Shown here: one piece after another, positions 27,462 through 39,632 of the stretch | Layout: the number at the start of each line of letters is the position of its first letter | How positions within the stretch are numbered: position 1 is the first letter of the stretch | Notes under the pieces: generated by a model | Databases searched by the model: none | The model's input: the letters and a program-made list of their open reading frames with translations, nothing else | What the model was told of the DNA's origin: nothing | Source: Polaromonas sp. AER18D-145 | GTDB taxonomy: Bacteria > Pseudomonadota > Gammaproteobacteria > Burkholderiales > Burkholderiaceae_C | Reading direction: 5' to 3' | Assembly: GCF_002379095.1 (NCBI RefSeq) | Contig: NZ_NBZV01000017.1 | Span: 1-64,000 of the forward strand | DNA length: 64,000 nucleotides | Program-made: the position numbers and the translations under genes

Positions 27462-28901
27462 ATGTCAGATCTATCCATTCCCGCAGACAAGTTGCGCGAA
27501 ACGGCCGCGCAAGGCCCCACCATCGCCACGACGCTCGCCGCCTTCGCCGAGAGCCTGCGTCCTGAGGCGATTCCCCCCGCCGTCCTCGAGCGCGCGAAGT
27601 ATCTTATCCTCGACGCCGTCGGCATCGCGCATGCCTCCACCCGCTACGAGTTCGCGCACCGCTCGCTCTCGGCGGCCACCGAGCTATCCGCAGGGATGGG
27701 CGACACGCCGGTGATCGGCCTGTCCGCGCGGCTGCAGTTGCGCGACGCGATGCTCATGAACGGCATCCTCGTGCACGGCCTCGACTACGACGACACGCAC
27801 GTGCAGGGCGTCATCCACTCGACCGCCGCCTGCTTCCCCGCCGCGCTCGGCGTGGCGGCCCACGCAGGGCTCAGCGGCGGAGACCTCCTCACGGCCTACG
27901 TGGTGGGCATGGAGGCGGGCACGCGCCTGGGCTCGGTCGCCAGGGGCGGCTTCCACCAGATCGGCTTCCACCCCACTGGACTCGTGGGCGCCTTCTCCGC
28001 CACGCTCGTCGCGGGTCGCCTGTTCGGCCTCAACGCCCAGCAGCTCGCCATGGCGCAGGGCATCGCGCTGAGCACCGGCTCGGGCAGCCTCGAGTTTCTC
28101 AACGACGGCGCATGGACCAAGCGCATGCACCCCGGATGGGCCGCGGGCGCCGGCCTCACCGCCGCCTCGCTGGCGCGCCACGGTTTCGTCGGTCCGAAGC
28201 AGGTCTACGAGGGCCGCTTCGGCCTCTTCGCGAGCCACCTCGGGCAGTACGCCAAGGACATTGACCTGTCGCTCGCCACCGCCGGGTTGGGCGAGGTCTG
28301 GGAGACCGCCAAGGTTGCAGTGAAGCCCATTCCCGCCTGCCACTTCACGCACGCCTGCGCCGACGCGGCCGTCATCCTTCGCGACAGGCATGGCCTTGAG
28401 CCCGCCGACATCCGCTCGGTGCGCGCGCTCGTGCCGCAGGAAGTCGTGAAGACGGTGTGCGAGCCGGTGGCCACCAAGAAGCGCCCGCAGAACAGCTACG
28501 ACGCCCAGTTCAGCATTCCCTACATCGTCGCCACGGCGCTCGCCCGCGGCAGCTTCGGCCTCGCGCACCTCGAGAGCGCGGCGCTCGCCGACACGGAAGT
28601 GCTGGCCCTCGCGCAGCGGGTGGAGTACGAGGTGGACCCGGCGTCCCCCTTCCCGAAGTACTACTCGGGCGAGGTCATCGTCACGACCCACGACGGGCGC
28701 GAACTGCGCCACCGCGAGGAGATCAACCGCGGTGCCGCCGACCGCCCGATCTCCGGCCCCGACATCGAGAAGAAATTCATGGACAACATGCTGCTCGCCG
28801 TGTCCAAGAGCCGCGCCGAGCAGGTGCGCGACCTCGTGCTCAGCATGGACCGGGGCCTGCAAGCCCGTGACCTCGCCGAAGGCCTCGCCGCCCGCGGCTG
28901 A
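27462..28901 (+). CDS. MmgE/PrpD-family protein
   Basis: The 479-residue MmgE/PrpD-family protein has the helical N-terminal domain with GLDYDDTHVQGVIHSTAACF (about 106-125). FHQIGFHPTGLVGAFSATLV (about 163-182) and MHPGWAAGAGLTAASLARHG (about 222-241) are also family-typical. Members include 2-methylcitrate dehydratase and cis-aconitate decarboxylase; many act on dicarboxylates or their CoA esters. It starts after AAAGGAA, 20 bases past dctM. In the Pseudomonas itaconate cluster, as I recall, a member of this family is also present with no settled role. Confidence 0.88.
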   Translation: MSDLSIPADKLRETAAQGPTIATTLAAFAESLRPEAIPPAVLERAKYLILDAVGIAHASTRYEFAHRSLSAATELSAGMGDTPVIGLSARLQLRDAMLMNGILVHGLDYDDTHVQGVIHSTAACFPAALGVAAHAGLSGGDLLTAYVVGMEAGTRLGSVARGGFHQIGFHPTGLVGAFSATLVAGRLFGLNAQQLAMAQGIALSTGSGSLEFLNDGAWTKRMHPGWAAGAGLTAASLARHGFVGPKQVYEGRFGLFASHLGQYAKDIDLSLATAGLGEVWETAKVAVKPIPACHFTHACADAAVILRDRHGLEPADIRSVRALVPQEVVKTVCEPVATKKRPQNSYDAQFSIPYIVATALARGSFGLAHLESAALADTEVLALAQRVEYEVDPASPFPKYYSGEVIVTTHDGRELRHREEINRGAADRPISGPDIEKKFMDNMLLAVSKSRAEQVRDLVLSMDRGLQARDLAEGLAARG

Positions 28902-28915
28902 ATGCCACCTCTCAC

Positions 28916-30091
28916 ATGACGCAAAAAGGAACGCCCGTGACACCGGAACAACAGCAAAACGAACAAATGATCCTCGACTCGGTCGACAGATTCCTCGAGG
29001 CCGAGGTGCGCCCGCACGCCCACCGGCTTGAGGCGGCAGACGAGTACCCGCAGGCCATCGTGGACAGGATGAAGGAGCTGGGCCTGTTCGGCTGCATCAT
29101 CGACCCCGAGTACGGCGGTTTCGGCCTGTCCACCACGACTTACGCGAAGATCATCGAGCGCATGTCGGTGGTGTGGATGAGCGTTTCCGGCATCCTCAAC
29201 TCGCACCTCATCATGGCCGCAGCCGTGCAGCGTAGCGGGACGGAAGCGCAAAAGCGCCACTACCTGCCGAAATTCGCCACCGGCGAGTTGCGCGGCGGTG
29301 TCGGCCTGACCGAACCCGACTGCGGCACCGATCTACAGGCCATCCGTACCGTGGCCGTGCGCGACGGCGACCACTACGTCGTGAATGGCGCTAAAACCTG
29401 GATCACCAACAGCCTGTATGGCAACACCCTCGCGCTGCTGGTAAAGACCGACCCGCAGGCGCAGCCGCGCCACAAGGGCATGAGCCTGTTCATCGCCGAG
29501 AAGGGGCCGGGCTTCAAGGTCGAGAGGAAGCTGGAGAAGCTCGGCTACCGCGGCATCGACACCTGCGAGCTGGTGTTCGAGGACTACCGCATCCCGGCCG
29601 ACCGCCTGATCGGCGGTGTCGAGGGCAAAGGCCTGCAGCAGGTGCTCAGCGGCCTGGAGCTCGGGCGTATCAACGTGGCCGCGCGCGGGGTGGGCGTGGC
29701 GCGCGCGGCGCTGCAGGACGCTGTCGCCTATGCGCAGACCCGCAAGACCTTCGGCAAGCCCATCTGCGAGCACCAGGCTATCCAGCTCAAGCTCGGCGAG
29801 ATGGCCACGCGCGTGGAGGCATCGCGGCTGCTGGTGGAGTCGGCGGCCAGTGCCTATGACCGCGGTGATCGTTGCGACATGGAGGCCGGCATGGCCAAGT
29901 ACTTCGCCACCGAATCGGCGATGGAAAACGCGCTTGAGTGCATGCGCATCCACGGCGGCTACGGCTACTCGAAGGAGTACAACGTCGAGCGCTACTTCCG
30001 CGACGCGCCGCTGCTGCTCATCGGCGAGGGCACCAACGAGATGCAGCGCATCATCATCGCCAAGCAACTGATCGAACGGAACCCCGCATGA
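28916..30091 (+). CDS. Acyl-CoA dehydrogenase (short-chain type)
   Basis: The 391-residue dehydrogenase has GVGLTEPDCGTDLQAI (about 126-141), TWITNSLYGN (about 161-170), the signature IHGGYGYSKEYNVERYFRDA (about 345-364) and a complete catalytic site GEGTNEMQ with Glu371, as in butyryl-CoA dehydrogenase. Among the dehydrogenases in this window it is the one with the clear MCAD-position base. In an itaconate-like cluster it might handle methylsuccinyl-CoA or a similar C5 acid; this is a guess from context. Its stop overlaps the CoA-transferase start (ATGA). Confidence 0.92.
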   Translation: MTQKGTPVTPEQQQNEQMILDSVDRFLEAEVRPHAHRLEAADEYPQAIVDRMKELGLFGCIIDPEYGGFGLSTTTYAKIIERMSVVWMSVSGILNSHLIMAAAVQRSGTEAQKRHYLPKFATGELRGGVGLTEPDCGTDLQAIRTVAVRDGDHYVVNGAKTWITNSLYGNTLALLVKTDPQAQPRHKGMSLFIAEKGPGFKVERKLEKLGYRGIDTCELVFEDYRIPADRLIGGVEGKGLQQVLSGLELGRINVAARGVGVARAALQDAVAYAQTRKTFGKPICEHQAIQLKLGEMATRVEASRLLVESAASAYDRGDRCDMEAGMAKYFATESAMENALECMRIHGGYGYSKEYNVERYFRDAPLLLIGEGTNEMQRIIIAKQLIERNPA

Positions 30092-31278
30092 GTTTGCCTC
30101 TTACCGGCGTTCGCATCATTGCCGTCGAGCAGTACGGCGCGGGGCCCTTCGGCACGCAACAGCTGGCCGACATGGGCGCGGAAATCATCAAGATCGAGAA
30201 CCCGGTCGAGGGTGGGGACGTCGGCCGACTGGTCGGTCCGCACTACTTCGGGCCGGGTGACAGTCACTTCTTCGAGGCCTTTAACCGCAACAAGAAGAGC
30301 CTGACGCTCAACCTCAAGCACCCCGAGAGCCAGGCCGTGTTCGCCGATCTGGTGAAAAGCGCTGACGCAACTTTCGACAACCTGCGCGGCGACTTGGCGA
30401 GCAAGCTCGGTCTCACCTACGCGGACCTCGGGGTGCACAACCCGCGCATCGTCTGCGGACACCTGTCGGCCTACGGGCGCACCGGCCCGCGCGCCGCGTG
30501 GCCGGGCTACGACTACCTCATGCAGGCCGAGGCCGGCTACCTTTCCCTCACCGGCGAACCCGACGGCCCGCCCGCGCGCTTCGGGTTGTCGATCGTCGAC
30601 ATGATGACCGGCGTCACTGCGATGACGGGGCTGCTGGCAGGCATCATCGACGCGCGCGCCAATGGCAAGGGGCGCGACATCGACGTGAGCCTGTTCGACG
30701 TGGCGCTCACCAACCTGAACTACGTGGCCGCGTGGTACCTGAACGAAGGCGTTGTGGTGCGACGCGAGCCGCGTTCTGCGCACCCCTCGCTCACGCCCAG
30801 CCAGCTCTACCGCACGAAGGATGGCTGGCTCTTTGTGATGTGCAACAAGGAGAAGTTCTGGCCCCTGTTCGCGCAGGCGATCGGCAAGCCGGAGTGGGCG
30901 GCACACCCCGATTATGCGAACTACAAGGCGCGCCTGGCCAACCGCGACCAGCTCACCCGCGAGCTCGACGCGGTGCTGGGCACGGCAACCACTGCCGAGT
31001 GGCTGGAGCGGCTTTCCGGCACCGTGCCGGTGGCCCCGGTGTACGACGTGGCCCAGGCCTTGGACAGCCCATTCGTGCGCGAGCAGGGCTGCATCATGGA
31101 GGCCCCGCACCCAGCGCGCGGAACGATCCGAACGCTCGCCTCTCCCATCCGTTGCCCCGGCGAGACGGAGAAGGTTGGCATCGCGCCGGCGATGGGCGAA
31201 CACACGAGGGAACTTCTGCACGGGCTCGGTTACGATGAAGATCGTATCGACCACCTGTCCAAATCCGGAGCCATCTGA
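30088..31278 (+). CDS. CaiB/BaiF family III CoA-transferase
   Basis: The 396-residue protein starts MSLPLTGVRIIAVEQYGAGP, four bases into the overlap with the dehydrogenase stop. Family III motifs are QLADMGAEIIKIENP (about 25-39), NRNKKSLTLNLKHPE (about 68-82) and GLSIVDMMTGVTAM, whose Asp171 is the expected catalytic aspartate. It transfers CoA between carboxylates. In an ict-like setting the acceptor would be itaconate or a relative with succinyl-CoA as donor. Longer in-frame starts lie inside the upstream gene. Confidence 0.9.
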   Translation: MSLPLTGVRIIAVEQYGAGPFGTQQLADMGAEIIKIENPVEGGDVGRLVGPHYFGPGDSHFFEAFNRNKKSLTLNLKHPESQAVFADLVKSADATFDNLRGDLASKLGLTYADLGVHNPRIVCGHLSAYGRTGPRAAWPGYDYLMQAEAGYLSLTGEPDGPPARFGLSIVDMMTGVTAMTGLLAGIIDARANGKGRDIDVSLFDVALTNLNYVAAWYLNEGVVVRREPRSAHPSLTPSQLYRTKDGWLFVMCNKEKFWPLFAQAIGKPEWAAHPDYANYKARLANRDQLTRELDAVLGTATTAEWLERLSGTVPVAPVYDVAQALDSPFVREQGCIMEAPHPARGTIRTLASPIRCPGETEKVGIAPAMGEHTRELLHGLGYDEDRIDHLSKSGAI

Positions 31279-31280
31279 AC

Positions 31281-32045
31281 GTGCAATCTTCTTCCCCCCT
31301 GCTCGCGCGTCAACCCCAGTATGCCCTCGTCGCGCAACGCCTCATCGAGGACATCACCAGCGGCCGTTATCCCGTGGGGAGCCTCATGCCCACCGAGTTT
31401 GACCTGTGCACTCAGTTCGGCGTGAGCCGCCATACGGTGCGTGAGGCGATCCGCCGATTGCTGGAGCGCGGACTGGTCACGCGCCAGCGGGGGATTGGCA
31501 CGACCGTGAAGGCGAACCGGGTGGCGAGCCGCTATGTCCAGACCACCGCGACGATCGCGGACCTGCCGCGCTACGTCGAAGACACACTGCTCGTTACCAC
31601 GCAGGCCGAGGACGTGATCGCAGACGAGGCGCTCGCCGATCTCCTCAAGTGCCCGCCCGGGCAACGCTGGGTGAAGGTGACGGGCTTTCGCCATGCCGAC
31701 AAGGACAAGCTCCCGATGGCGCTCACCGACATCTACATCAATGCAGCCTACGGGGGCATCCGCAAACTCATCGGCACGCTGAAGGTACCAGTCTACACAC
31801 TGATCGAGAAGCAGTACGGCCTGACCATCGTTGAGGTGCAGCAGGAGATCAGCGCCACCATCATTGGCACGGCCGACGCCAGGCGCCTGAGCGTCAAGCC
31901 GGGCTCAGCGGGCCTCGTCGTCACGCGCCGCTACCTGACTGACAATGACCGCACCATTGAGGTGGCCATTAACCTGCACCCGGCCGACCGCTTCTCCTAC
32001 TCAATGTCGATGCGCCTGCAGATACCGGCCGATGCGGATGCGTAG
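31281..32045 (+). CDS. GntR-family (HutC/UTRA) transcriptional regulator
   Basis: The 254-residue regulator uses GTG at 31281, just after the CoA-transferase stop. The N-terminal winged helix contains ALVAQRLIEDITSGRYPVGS and MPTEFDLCTQFGVSRHTVRE (about 15-55), then the wing GLVTRQRGIGTTVKA. The C-terminal UTRA ligand domain (about 90-245) ends VVTRRYLTDNDRTIEVAINL. HutC-type members bind small acids and release GTC-type palindromes. Its likely site is the perfect palindrome at 23998-24013 at the operon promoter, which would make the operon self-regulated. Confidence 0.92.
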   Translation: MQSSSPLLARQPQYALVAQRLIEDITSGRYPVGSLMPTEFDLCTQFGVSRHTVREAIRRLLERGLVTRQRGIGTTVKANRVASRYVQTTATIADLPRYVEDTLLVTTQAEDVIADEALADLLKCPPGQRWVKVTGFRHADKDKLPMALTDIYINAAYGGIRKLIGTLKVPVYTLIEKQYGLTIVEVQQEISATIIGTADARRLSVKPGSAGLVVTRRYLTDNDRTIEVAINLHPADRFSYSMSMRLQIPADADA

Positions 32046-33261
32046 CACGCTGTTTCCGCTGGCCGCGACGCTCGCGGTGCAAGTTTTTGTGTCGATGGCG
32101 GTGGTAACGGTGCCTGTGCTTGCCCCGGCCGTGGCGGCCGAAACCGGCGTTTCAGCCAGTTACGTCGGTATTTTCATTGCGATGGTGTACGGCGCCAGCA
32201 TGGCCGCGAGCCTCGTGTCCGGCCCGCTGGTGCAGCGTTTCGGCGCCATCCGCCTGAGCCAGGCCTGCCTGATGGCCTGCGCGGTCGGGCTGGCCTGCGT
32301 GGCCACGGGGACACCCGCCTTGTTCGTCGTTGGCGCCATCTTCCTTGGCGCGGGCTATGGCCCGGTCACCCCGGCCAGTTCGCATATCCTCGCCAGGAGC
32401 ACGCCGCCGGAGAGGCTGTCACTCGTTTTTTCGCTCAAGCAGACCGGCGTGCCGCTCGGCGGTGCGTTGGCCGGTGCCGTGGTGCCGACGCTGGTGCTGT
32501 GGGGTGGCTGGCGCGCGGCTGCACTCGCGGTGGCCGGCGCCTGTCTAGCTACCCTCGCCCTCGCCCAACCCCTGCGCGAGGTGCTCGATGCCGACCGCGA
32601 CCCCGCGCGGCGGCTGGCGGCATCCAGCCTCGCGAAGCCGCTGCACTACACGCTGGGCGACTCGCTGCTGCGCCGCCTGGCCTTCTGCTCGTTCTTCTTC
32701 GCGGCGCTCCAGCTGTGTCTGATCACCTTCCTCGTCACGCACCTCACGCTGAACGTCGGCATCTCGCTGGTCGAGGCAGGACTCATGCTCGCTGCCGCGC
32801 AAGTCGGCGGCGTGGTCGCGCGCGTCGGCTGGGGCGTGATCGCGGACCGCTGGGGCCGGCCCATGCGTCTGCTCGGCCTCCTGGCCATTGCCATGGGGGC
32901 GGCCGCAGTTGCGACGGGGCGTTTCACGCCGCAGTGGCCGCTTGCCTCCGTCGCCCTGGCGTGTGCTGCCTTCGGCGCCACGGCGATCGGCTGGAACGGT
33001 GTCTACCTAGCGCAGGTGGCGCGCCTCGCCCCGCCGGGCAAGGCCGGGGACGCCACAGGCGGATCCCTGGTATTTACCTACGCTGGCGTCCTATTCGGCC
33101 CGCCGGCGTTCACTTTTCTCGTCGGATGGGGTGTGAGCTATGCGTCAGCTTTCGTAGTGCTCGCCGTGCCGGCTGTTGCCTGTGGGCTGTGGCTGATTTG
33201 GCGGGACGGGAGTCGAAACGAGCCCGGGCGCGGCGCGCCCGGCAAACTGGAGAACGGATGA
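32032..33261 (+). CDS. MFS transporter
   Basis: From the ATG at 32032 (another at 32038) the product is 409 residues with about twelve hydrophobic helices. MFS features include GPLVQRFGAIRLSQ (about 62-75, loop 2-3) and GVIADRWGRPMR (about 268-279, the equivalent loop in the second half). The conserved VFSLKQTGVPLGGALAGAVV (about 131-150) is also seen. It overlaps the GntR gene by 14 bases and the next gene by 4. It may import or export the acid used by the operon, in addition to the TRAP system. Confidence 0.9.
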   Translation: MRMRSTLFPLAATLAVQVFVSMAVVTVPVLAPAVAAETGVSASYVGIFIAMVYGASMAASLVSGPLVQRFGAIRLSQACLMACAVGLACVATGTPALFVVGAIFLGAGYGPVTPASSHILARSTPPERLSLVFSLKQTGVPLGGALAGAVVPTLVLWGGWRAAALAVAGACLATLALAQPLREVLDADRDPARRLAASSLAKPLHYTLGDSLLRRLAFCSFFFAALQLCLITFLVTHLTLNVGISLVEAGLMLAAAQVGGVVARVGWGVIADRWGRPMRLLGLLAIAMGAAAVATGRFTPQWPLASVALACAAFGATAIGWNGVYLAQVARLAPPGKAGDATGGSLVFTYAGVLFGPPAFTFLVGWGVSYASAFVVLAVPAVACGLWLIWRDGSRNEPGRGAPGKLENG

Positions 33262-34074
33262 TGGATCGGTCTTATCTGTTCGTGCCCGGCAACCGGCCGG
33301 AGCGATTCGACAAGGCGTATGCTGCGGGAGCGCACGCGGTGATCGTGGACCTGGAGGATGCGGTGGCCCCGGCCGACAAGGCGGCCGCGCGGAAGGCGGC
33401 GCGTGCCTGGCTCACGGCGGAGAAACCCGTGTGGCTGCGCATCAACGGCCCCGAAAGCGAATGGTTTTCCAGCGATCTCGACCTGGTGGCCCTCGCCGGC
33501 GTGAAGGGCGTGATGCTTCCAAAGGCTGAGGACACTGTGGCCATCGCCGAAATCCGCGGCCGGGTGCGCGCGGGCGCACGCATCATTCCGCTCATCGAGT
33601 CAGCGCTGGGCCTGTGGCGGGCCGAGGCCATCGCCTGCGCGGAAGGCGTCGAGCGCCTCGCCTTTGGCTCCGTCGACTTCCAACTGGACACCGGAATTGC
33701 CGGTGAGCGCGAGGAACTGCTCTTCGCTCGCTCGCAGCTCGTGCTCGTCTCGCGGGTCGCGGGCCGCGGGCCGTCTCGCACCGGTGGACGGCGTGACGGT
33801 CGCTCTAGACGACGAGGCCGTGCTGCGCGAGGACGTGGAGCGCGCGCGGCGCCTCGGTTTCGGGGGCAAGCTCTGCATTCACCCGAAGCAGGTGGCGGGC
33901 GTGAACGCGGGCTTTCGCGCCCCCGACGCGGACCTCGCGTGGGCGCGTCGCGTTCTCGAGGCGGCAGATGCCGCTGCCAATAACGCAGTTCGCCTCGACG
34001 GCAAGCTCATCGACCGACCGATCATAGACCGGGCGCGCGCAATCCTCGCCGTCGTGGAGGGGCCGCGATCATGA
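33258..34074 (+). pseudogene. CitE-type (HpcH/HpaI) acyl-CoA lyase, interrupted by a frameshift
   Basis: The first part (MMDRSYLFVPGNRPERFDKA to REELLFARSQLVLVSRVAG) and the last part (PVDGVTVALDDEAVLREDVE to the stop at 34074) belong to one CitE-like protein but lie in different frames. The change of frame falls in three tandem 7-base units at 33751-33771. Removing one unit restores a continuous reading frame of 269 residues, the usual CitE/Ccl length. Motifs kept are VDLEDAV (about 31-37), LPKAEDTVAIAEI and IPLIESALGL. Citramalyl-CoA lyase would be the matching step in an itaconate-like route. As sequenced the protein is truncated after the repeat. Confidence 0.88.
33751..33771. repeat. Three tandem 7-bp units inside citE
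   Basis: Units CGCGGGT, CGCGGGC and CGCGGGC follow one another without gaps. Seven is not a multiple of three, so the number of units sets the reading frame of the CitE gene. Two units give VSRVAGRLAPVDG in frame; three units, as here, do not. Confidence 0.85.
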
Positions 34075-34769
34075 TCACGGTGCCGAAGGAAGTCATCGTC
34101 GACGAGATCGAGCTATTGCGACGGCTGGTGCCGCTTGCCGGTGCGCGCGTGGTGGAGCTCGGATGCGGCAGGGCGGACGTCGCACGGCGTATGCTGGAAC
34201 GACAGCTTGTGGCCTCGGTGACGGCGTTTGAAGTCGACGAGGTGCAGCACGCGCGCAACTTGGCCGATCCGCATCCGGCAGGCCTTCACTTCCTGGCGGG
34301 CAGCGCCGAAGATATTCCCTTGCCAGACGCCTCTTGCGATGTCGTGATCATGCTGAAGTCGCTGCATCACGTCCCCATACCCCGGCTCGACCGGGCGTTT
34401 GCGGAAATTCGGCGCGTGCTGGTTCCTGGCGGCTATCTCTATGTCTCGGAGCCCGTGTACTCGGGGGACTTCAACGAGATCGTGCGGCTCTTCCACGATG
34501 AAGGCAGCGTGCGCGCGGCAGCTTACGACGCGCTGCAACGCGCCGCCGCAGGATTGCTCACCCATGTCGAGGAGACGGTCTTCAGTACGCCACTCACGTT
34601 CCGTGACTTCGACGATTTTATTGACAGGATCGTTCGCGCGACGCACTCCACTCTCATTCTCGAGGGTGAAACACTTGCCGAGGTCCGCCGCCGCTTCAAT
34701 CGCTTCGTAACTCCGGAAGGCGCTCGTTTCGTGCGAGAGATGCGCGTCAATGTGTTGCGGCGGCCGTAG
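34071..34769 (+). CDS. Class I SAM-dependent methyltransferase
   Basis: The 232-residue protein has methyltransferase motif I VVELGCGRADVARRM (about 24-38), motif III-like DASCDVVIMLKSLHHVPIPR (about 85-104) and the following RRVLVPGGYLYVSEP (about 114-128), as in UbiE-like Methyltransf_11 enzymes. It overlaps the citE 3' end by four bases, so it belongs to the operon. The substrate is unknown. A methyl ester-forming role (as in trans-aconitate methyltransferase) would fit a dicarboxylate cluster but is speculative. After it the operon ends in a region of relics. Confidence 0.85.
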   Translation: MITVPKEVIVDEIELLRRLVPLAGARVVELGCGRADVARRMLERQLVASVTAFEVDEVQHARNLADPHPAGLHFLAGSAEDIPLPDASCDVVIMLKSLHHVPIPRLDRAFAEIRRVLVPGGYLYVSEPVYSGDFNEIVRLFHDEGSVRAAAYDALQRAAAGLLTHVEETVFSTPLTFRDFDDFIDRIVRATHSTLILEGETLAEVRRRFNRFVTPEGARFVREMRVNVLRRP

Positions 34770-37482: not shown

Positions 37483-38367
37483 ATGATGATGATCCGAAGC
37501 CTCTTCTTCGCACCCGCCAACCGGGCCGACCTCGTTGCCAAGTTTCCGCGCTTCCCGGCCGACTGCTACGTCGTGGATCTGGAAGACGGCACGCCGCTGG
37601 CCGAGAAGGAACCCGCGCGCGCCGGGCTGGCCGCACTGGTGGCGGCAGCGCGCAAGCAGCCGGTGGACGGGTTACTGACCGTGCGGGTGAACGAGCCCGA
37701 ATCGGACCAGTACCTCGAGGACCTGGACGCCGCCCTGCGCGCCGACATCGATGGGATCGTCATTCCCAAACTGGAAAAGGTCGAGCAGCTCTATCCGGCG
37801 CTGCATCTCATGCGTCGCCTCGACCGTGACGCGCCGCGCGCGGCGCCGCGCTTCATCGTGGGTGGCATCGAGTCGATCACCGGCGTGACCAATTCGGCGG
37901 CGCTGTGCGCCGCGCATCCGGCCATCGCCGCCGTCTACTTCGGCGCGGAAGACCTGGCGAGCGACCTTGGCGCCCGCCGCACCGCCGATTCGGCGGAAGT
38001 GGCCTACGCACGCTCGCGCGTGCTGCTGCACGCGAAGGCAGCCCGCATCTTGGCGCTCGACCAGGCCGTGCTGGAAATCCGCGACGACAACCATTTCGAG
38101 CGCGACGCCACCACGGGCCGCGACATGGGCTACGACGGCAAGATCTGCCTGCTGCCGCGCCAGCTCGAGGTGGCCAACCGGGTGTTCCGCCCCAGCGACG
38201 CCGAACTCGATCACGCGCGCCGCCTCATCGCACGCTACGAGGAAGCGATGGCCCGCGGCATCGGCACCATCGATTTCGAGGGCAAGATGGTCGACGGCCC
38301 GCTCCTGAAGCGCGCACAGCGCATGGTCGGGTTCGCCAACGCGCTGGCCGCGCGGGGAACGAAATGA
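37483..38367 (+). CDS. CitE-type (HpcH/HpaI) acyl-CoA lyase
   Basis: The 294-residue intact CitE-like protein starts MMMIRSLFFAPANRADLVAK (three ATGs in a row). Motifs are YVVDLEDGTPLAEKE (about 28-42), DGIVIPKLEKVEQL (about 88-101), GGIESITGVTNSAA (about 127-140), FGAEDLASDLGARR (about 153-166) and the C-terminal YDGKICLLPRQLEVAN. These give the metal-binding Glu/Asp and substrate Arg set of malyl-/citramalyl-CoA lyase-like enzymes. It overlaps the following CoA-transferase gene by four bases. It is a different paralogue from the broken citE at 33258 and could cover for it. Confidence 0.9.
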   Translation: MMMIRSLFFAPANRADLVAKFPRFPADCYVVDLEDGTPLAEKEPARAGLAALVAAARKQPVDGLLTVRVNEPESDQYLEDLDAALRADIDGIVIPKLEKVEQLYPALHLMRRLDRDAPRAAPRFIVGGIESITGVTNSAALCAAHPAIAAVYFGAEDLASDLGARRTADSAEVAYARSRVLLHAKAARILALDQAVLEIRDDNHFERDATTGRDMGYDGKICLLPRQLEVANRVFRPSDAELDHARRLIARYEEAMARGIGTIDFEGKMVDGPLLKRAQRMVGFANALAARGTK

Positions 38368-39632
38368 TCCGCATCGACCCCTCCAGCCTCGACCTGCGCG
38401 AATGGATCCGCAAGGGCGACCACATCCTCGTTGCGCAAGGAACGGCCGAGCCGCAGACGCTGACCGAAAAGCTCGTCGAACAACGCGCCGAACTCGGTGG
38501 CGTGAACACCTTCCTTTGCGCGATGTTCTCGGACACCTTCCAGCCCGGTGCGGTGGACGGCCTCGGCCTACGCGGCATCGGCGGTGTCGGCACCAATCGC
38601 CGCCTGATCAAGGCCGGGCGGATGCGCGTCGTACCGGCGCATGTCTCACAGATCCCTGCGTTCATCGAAAGCGGCGCCATCGGCTGCGACGTGGCGTTCG
38701 TGCAAGTCAGCCCGCCTGACGAAAGCGGCCGGTACAGCCTCGGCCTGGCGGCGGACTACACGCGCATCGCCGTGGACAAGGCCAGGATCGTCATCGTCGA
38801 AATGAACCAGCAGGTGCCGCAGTCGCTCTGCGACGGCGCCCTGACCGAAGCCGACATCGACGTGCTGGTCGAAACGGACCGCCCGCTCCTGGAGCTGCCG
38901 TCAGCCGCCGTTGGCGACCTCGAGCGGCAGATCGCCGCGCACGTGGACCGGTTCATCCCGGACCGGGCGACGCTGCAGGTGGGCATCGGTGCGATCCCCG
39001 AGGCCATCATCGCGATGCTGTCCAGCCGCAAGGACCTGGGCATCCATTCCGGCATGGTGGGCGACTCGGTCGTGGACCTGATGGAGTCCGGCGTCGTGAC
39101 CAACGCGTACAAGGAGATAGACCCCGGCGTCACGGTGAGTGGCGTCCTCTTCGGCACGCGCGACAAGCTCTATCGCTTCGCGCACCGCAACCCGGCGCTC
39201 CGGCTCAAGCCCATTCCCTACACGCACGGCACGTCCGTGCTGTCGCAGCTCTCGCGCTTCATCTCCGTCAACTCCGCCATCGAGGTTGACCTGACGGGTC
39301 AGGTCAACGCCGAACTGGCTGGCGGCGACTATGTGGGTGCGGTCGGCGGGCAGGTCGACTACGTGCGGGCCGCGGGCCAGTCACCGGGCGGCGCGTCGAT
39401 CATCGCCTTCCCGAGCGCGGCCAAGGGCGGCACGGTGCCGCGCATTGTCGCCAGGCTGGGCGGCCCGGTCACGACGGCGCGCGCCGATGTGGACATCATC
39501 GCCACCGAGAACGGCGCCGTGCGGCTGCGCGGCCTGGACCTGCAGCAGCGGGTGCGCGCGATGATCGACCTGGCTGCGCCCGACCACCGGGAAGCGCTGG
39601 CTCGCCAGGCGCGCGAGATGTACGGCACCTGA
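38364..39632 (+). CDS. Acetyl-CoA hydrolase/transferase-family (family I) CoA-transferase
   Basis: The 422-residue protein has the Cat1/4-hydroxybutyrate CoA-transferase pattern. Visible blocks are GDHILVAQGTAEPQTLTEKL (about 18-37), VQVSPPDESGRYSLG (about 113-127), LQVGIGAIPEAIIAML (about 197-212) and IHSGMVGDSVVDLMESGVVT (about 220-239). The C-terminal block is GGQVDYVRAAGQSPGGASII (about 330-349). It moves CoA onto a short carboxylic acid or hydrolyses acyl-CoA. Coupled to citE by ATGA overlap, it would activate the acid that the lyase later cleaves. It ends the plus-strand run; the strand changes after it. Confidence 0.9.
   Translation: MIRIDPSSLDLREWIRKGDHILVAQGTAEPQTLTEKLVEQRAELGGVNTFLCAMFSDTFQPGAVDGLGLRGIGGVGTNRRLIKAGRMRVVPAHVSQIPAFIESGAIGCDVAFVQVSPPDESGRYSLGLAADYTRIAVDKARIVIVEMNQQVPQSLCDGALTEADIDVLVETDRPLLELPSAAVGDLERQIAAHVDRFIPDRATLQVGIGAIPEAIIAMLSSRKDLGIHSGMVGDSVVDLMESGVVTNAYKEIDPGVTVSGVLFGTRDKLYRFAHRNPALRLKPIPYTHGTSVLSQLSRFISVNSAIEVDLTGQVNAELAGGDYVGAVGGQVDYVRAAGQSPGGASIIAFPSAAKGGTVPRIVARLGGPVTTARADVDIIATENGAVRLRGLDLQQRVRAMIDLAAPDHREALARQAREMYGT

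Follow-up and report, generated by a model that had tools for sequence, protein, structure and literature searches.

Within one operon of Polaromonas sp. AER18D-145, the gene for a CitE-type acyl-CoA lyase is divided between two reading frames at a short tandem repeat. Does this repeat switch the enzyme off and on, does it mark a recent inactivating duplication, or does it exist only in the assembly? We addressed these three readings, all offered by a first-pass annotation of the DNA, in the window, i.e., the whole stretch of 64,000 nucleotides analyzed here.

The heptamer repeat and the frame change in citE

As read from the sequence, positions 33751 to 33771 consist of CGCGGGT, CGCGGGC and CGCGGGC and lie inside the lyase gene (Table 1). 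TRF described the array as a repeat of period 7 with 3.3 copies and 93% matches. The first-pass annotation had located the frame split exactly at three tandem 7-base units, and this placement was confirmed by the sequence, by the frames of the open reading frames (ORFs), by the phase of GC by codon position, which shifts across the repeat site, and by an excess of 7 bases over relatives. Three units do stand in tandem; however, the first of them carries a one-base mismatch, and the exact units thus number only two. A 4-base repeat near 33723 was also considered as a cause of the frameshift and was ruled out, since the frame agrees with that of relatives past this point and up to the heptamer.

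Table 1. Features of the citE locus, with positions in the window
Feature	Position	Strand	Evidence or remark
MmgE/PrpD family protein	27462..28901	+	PF03972, PF19305
Acyl-CoA dehydrogenase	28916..30091	+	PF00441, PF02771, PF02770; intact, also in C. humi (L005)
CaiB-type (family III) CoA-transferase	30088..31278	+	PF02515, 371.2 bits; also in L005
GntR-family regulator with UTRA domain	31281..32045	+	PF00392, PF07702; also in L005
MFS transporter, start not fixed	32044..33261	+	PF07690, 172.4 bits; also in L005
citE before the break, HpcH/HpaI aldolase/citrate lyase domain	33261..33749	+	PF03328, 97.3 bits (cut-off 25); ATG also at 33258
Three tandem heptamer units, 7 bases more than relatives	33751..33771	+	Sequence, TRF, C. 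humi L005 DNA alignment, gap-free protein relatives
Heptamer unit 1, CGCGGGT	33751..33757		T replaces C at last position
Heptamer unit 2, CGCGGGC	33758..33764		
Heptamer unit 3, CGCGGGC	33765..33771		Followed by CG; identical to 33758..33764
citE after the break, one frame over	33772..34074	+	98/100 residues identical to P0002; PF15617, 27.1 bits, below cut-off 28.4
Out-of-frame tail of the 5' frame	33772..33983	+	TAA at 33981..33983; yields 241-residue P0001
Methyltransferase	34071..34769	+	Methyltransf_11, 71.1 bits; ATG 34071..34073 overlaps citE stop TGA 34072..34074 as ATGA

The frame open from 33261 encodes a normal CitE N-terminal part until the repeat and then runs into an out-of-frame tail, and the C-terminal half lies one frame over, in an ORF whose listed start, at 33664, is upstream of the break. 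Both halves look coding, as indicated by the change in the phase of GC by codon position. The PF03328 domain of the first part scored well above its cut-off, and the C-terminal part of the fold was found one frame over only. The gene of the window is a broken member of the HpcH/HpaI aldolase/CitE-type lyase family. Since the conserved PVDGV and GFGGKLCIHPKQV segments lie downstream of the break and are lost from the product of the 5' frame, this product has probably lost its lyase activity, to judge from sequence conservation. The listed 241-residue protein P0001 should be annotated with caution, since it ends in the out-of-frame tail.

Intact relatives and the age of the break

The genome collection held 454 relatives, of which the best 80 were kept, and Candidimonas humi DSM 25336 (locus L005) ranked first; it showed 80% protein identity to the first part of citE, and the next relative showed 65%. 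Its gene order is the same as in the window, leading from the end of an MmgE/PrpD gene (recognized by eye) through the acyl-CoA dehydrogenase, the CaiB-type CoA-transferase, the GntR regulator and the MFS transporter to citE. The BLASTN alignment of window positions 30002 to 34041 with C. humi spanned 4,057 columns, with an identity of 79.8%. Unlike the gene of the window, citE of C. humi is a single frame of 268 residues; it is 7 bases shorter at the repeat site and has the SRVAGR residues in common with the window, although it lacks the heptamer repeat. Thus, the repeat is absent from the sole DNA orthologue found, and conservation in related loci was judged on this one relative.

At the protein level, we used the best 120 homologues listed from a search limited to 8,000 candidates, a set that included P0001 of the window and therefore 119 others. 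P0002 to P0005, the closest among the matches listed (95, 94, 91 and 90% identical to the first part of citE), are members of the same family with an unbroken frame: all four are full length, with 266 to 269 residues, and gap-free across the repeat site. The solved structures nearest to the intact P0002 were acyl-CoA lyase beta chains (8khl, E 1.6e-49). A length of at least 255 residues was found in 117 of the 119 homologues listed, and 115 have the R[STAQ] and P[VIL]DG motifs at the same distance of 13 residues. The four exceptions were P0070, which is cut short close to the site, and P0093, P0100 and P0108, without a match to the motif pattern used.

Comparison of the same locus in relatives, which the first-pass annotation had proposed, thus supported an extra copy of the adjoining unit in the window. 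Three units offset by a compensating indel were ruled out in the relatives, which run gap-free through the site. Taken together, the C. humi DNA and the protein sequences of the 90 to 95% identical relatives suggest a two-unit ancestor. As a separate observation, P0070 is a metagenomic CitE homologue of 176 residues (62% identical) on a 1,214-base contig; it ends in SRVAGRLAPSTA, at almost the same point as the break in the window. This truncation is possibly due to chance and possibly to an error-prone spot.

A working enzyme could also be obtained from the split gene, either by ribosomal frameshifting or as two separate polypeptides, and both halves indeed retain coding composition and sequence. 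We find this scarcely credible, since the 115 homologues mentioned above are unbroken with the same motif spacing, the start listed for the second frame precedes the break, and no slippery signal was recognized by eye at the site.

The distribution of citE is patchy. When 60 other genomes of the genus were sampled, seven gave a match at E<=1e-70, with identities of up to 55%, and no close same-genus orthologue was found in these 60 genomes, none of the listed matches exceeding that value. In an order-wide draw of 300 genomes, 12 (counting this genome) reached E<=1e-75, and the best match from another genome had 54% identity. In a family-wide DNA search of 150 genomes, 25 had a match at E<=1e-20; the CoA-transferase part reached up to 78%, and no long stretch of the citE part exceeded 68%. 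Among plasmid records, 93 were matched, and none covered more than 80% of the query. The GyrB protein of the host was 97% identical to its best match, a protein named Polaromonas sp.; within the best 120 matches listed, the others that bore a genus name belonged to Polaromonas or Rhodoferax, at about 87 to 89%, which suggests a host close to Polaromonas.

We then considered the age of the break. Identity to P0002 was 155 of 163 residues before the break and 98 of 100 after it. Compared with C. humi, Ka/Ks was 0.177 before and 0.213 after the break in citE, and it was 0.236 in the MFS gene, 0.094 in the GntR gene, 0.067 in the CoA-transferase gene and 0.057 in the dehydrogenase gene. Since citE shows no decay after the break, the break either arose recently, or has not become fixed, or does not really exist. 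As a dating test, Ka/Ks was set aside as weak: it dates the break only loosely, because most of the divergence from C. humi is older than the break. Cells with two units, or an allele that flips, would account for the undecayed sequence equally well.

The first of these two possibilities corresponds to an error of assembly or consensus, in which the cells would carry two units and the third would exist only in the draft or represent a minority variant. Such an artefact would suit a draft assembly of 135 contigs, a GC-rich repeat stretch and a citE remainder without decay. However, the array of 23 bases is shorter than an ordinary short read, assemblers lose repeat units more readily than they add them, and the neighboring genes shared with C. 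humi are open. We regard an artefact as unlikely, although it is the main rival to an ordinary slippage frameshift.

Chance, probable slippage and a proposed switch

Three-unit arrays of period 7 with at most one mismatch were observed once in the 64 kb, versus means of 0.03, 0.05 and 0.02 under first-order, second-order and codon-shuffled null models (100 sequences each). Exact two-unit arrays of this period were observed 7 times (8 if the two arrays at this site are left unmerged), whereas the models gave 6.0 and 5.95 on average (60 sequences each) and 4.3 (100 sequences). Genome-wide (4,822,403 bases, 135 contigs), CGCGGGN in triplicate occurred once, at this site, and the reversed control gave 0 matches; the two-unit form gave 3 matches (two at this site and one in contig C63), versus 3 for the reversed control. 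Apart from N runs, no other period-7 triple was found in 20 further genome stretches (148,356 bases), 13 of which begin with N and 4 kb of which overlap the window. Thirteen contigs of less than 2 kb (C4 to C13 and C15 to C17) start with N. The two-unit heptamer is thus unremarkable, being as common as chance predicts, and the three-unit form is rare by chance. The third unit would require an event, the simplest being slipped-strand duplication of the adjoining identical unit.

Of the three readings offered by the first-pass annotation, the recent inactivating duplication is best supported, since citE is intact in the relatives and has 7 bases fewer in C. humi, and its half downstream of the break is undecayed in the window. 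We estimate a probability of about 70% that the locus carries a recent loss-of-function frameshift, produced by slippage in an ordinary catabolic gene, with no purpose-built switch. Synonymous drift in the patchily distributed citE could have generated a two-unit heptamer repeat by chance, and slipped-strand mispairing would then have added one more unit. With the additional 7 bases, translation would leave the original frame after about residue 168, and an unrelated tail would take the place of the C-terminal part and the last portion of the TIM barrel. The frame would be restored by loss of one unit, at the ordinary slippage rate and without a dedicated switch. The locus would then be a further case of slippage frameshift, in a catabolic gene that is probably dispensable.

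The reversible switch offered by the first-pass annotation is physically possible and gained no positive evidence. Phase variation would mean frequent, reversible changes in unit number, under selection for toggling the lyase and perhaps the overlapping methyltransferase. A unit of 7 bases, not a multiple of three, would allow such toggling, and low-copy precedents have been described. In one report, mutL of Salmonella LT7 and of Escherichia coli has alleles of three versus two 6-base tandem units, formed by slipped-strand mispairing, and in Salmonella the two forms interconvert in culture (PMC2955026). Low copy number thus does not forbid reversibility. The two systems resemble each other in that low-copy tandem units lie within a coding gene, as three versus two copies, with slippage toggling function. 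In mutL, however, the three-unit form is the functional one, the units preserve the reading frame and cultures yielded both alleles, whereas three-unit citE is broken, its units shift the frame, and it is known here from one assembly sequence.

Similarly, a Haemophilus influenzae survey regards as potentially phase-variable a heptamer tract of 1 to 7 copies together with a pentamer tract that has three units in one strain (PMC2651432). The heptanucleotide repeats of hmw1a and hmw2a share the seven-base unit with citE, and one tract, of 14 copies, is located within a frameshifted ORF; however, these tracts have 13 to 38 copies and are mostly in promoters (PMC2651432). The same text counts heptamers as simple sequence repeats from at least three uninterrupted units, and the citE array, with two exact units and one mismatched, falls short of this threshold. 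Moreover, the triple of the motif is the only one in the genome, the two-unit form is no commoner than its reversed control, C. humi lacks the repeat, P0002 to P0005 are all full length, and the gene is catabolic. We consequently consider a phase-variable switch improbable. If the unit number does vary in cells, metabolism would be switched by a repeat far shorter than the usual phase-variable ones. Two exact units with one imperfect copy, a repeat not kept in C. humi and a catabolic gene argue instead for an ordinary slippage frameshift.

Operon and surrounding genes

The view of the first-pass annotation that citE encodes the last enzyme of the operon is not quite accurate, since a methyltransferase gene overlaps its stop codon (Table 1). 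In MAG locus L006, the MFS transporter, CitE and a similar methyltransferase follow in that order, and C. humi has a LysR-like gene downstream of citE instead (both by eye). Because the shifted frame terminates 91 bases earlier, the frameshift may uncouple translation of the methyltransferase, whose start forms the ATGA overlap at 34071 to 34074. One might imagine the low-copy heptamer as a rare, population-level on/off switch of the lyase and, via ATGA, of the methyltransferase, with a few cells using or skipping the pathway; we give this idea very little credence and retain the simple slippage frameshift.

Other CitE-like genes with open frames were found in the same genome, in contig C45 (47802 to 48593; 52% identical to the C. 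humi protein), in contig C119 (3406 to 4212; 47%) and in the window itself (37492 to 38340; 33%), so partial redundancy is possible. In the region from 30085 to 32021, the CoA-transferase (together with the GntR gene in one genome) is closely matched at the DNA level, at up to 78%, in other genera of the family. Since these matches to the CoA-transferase were found without the citE part, the operon appears to be a composite of parts that moved independently. Finally, an exact two-unit heptamer, GCGGGCC twice, was observed at 39365 to 39378, in an ORF (37905 to 39632) after the second CitE-like gene of the window; this unit is a rotation of CGCGGGC.
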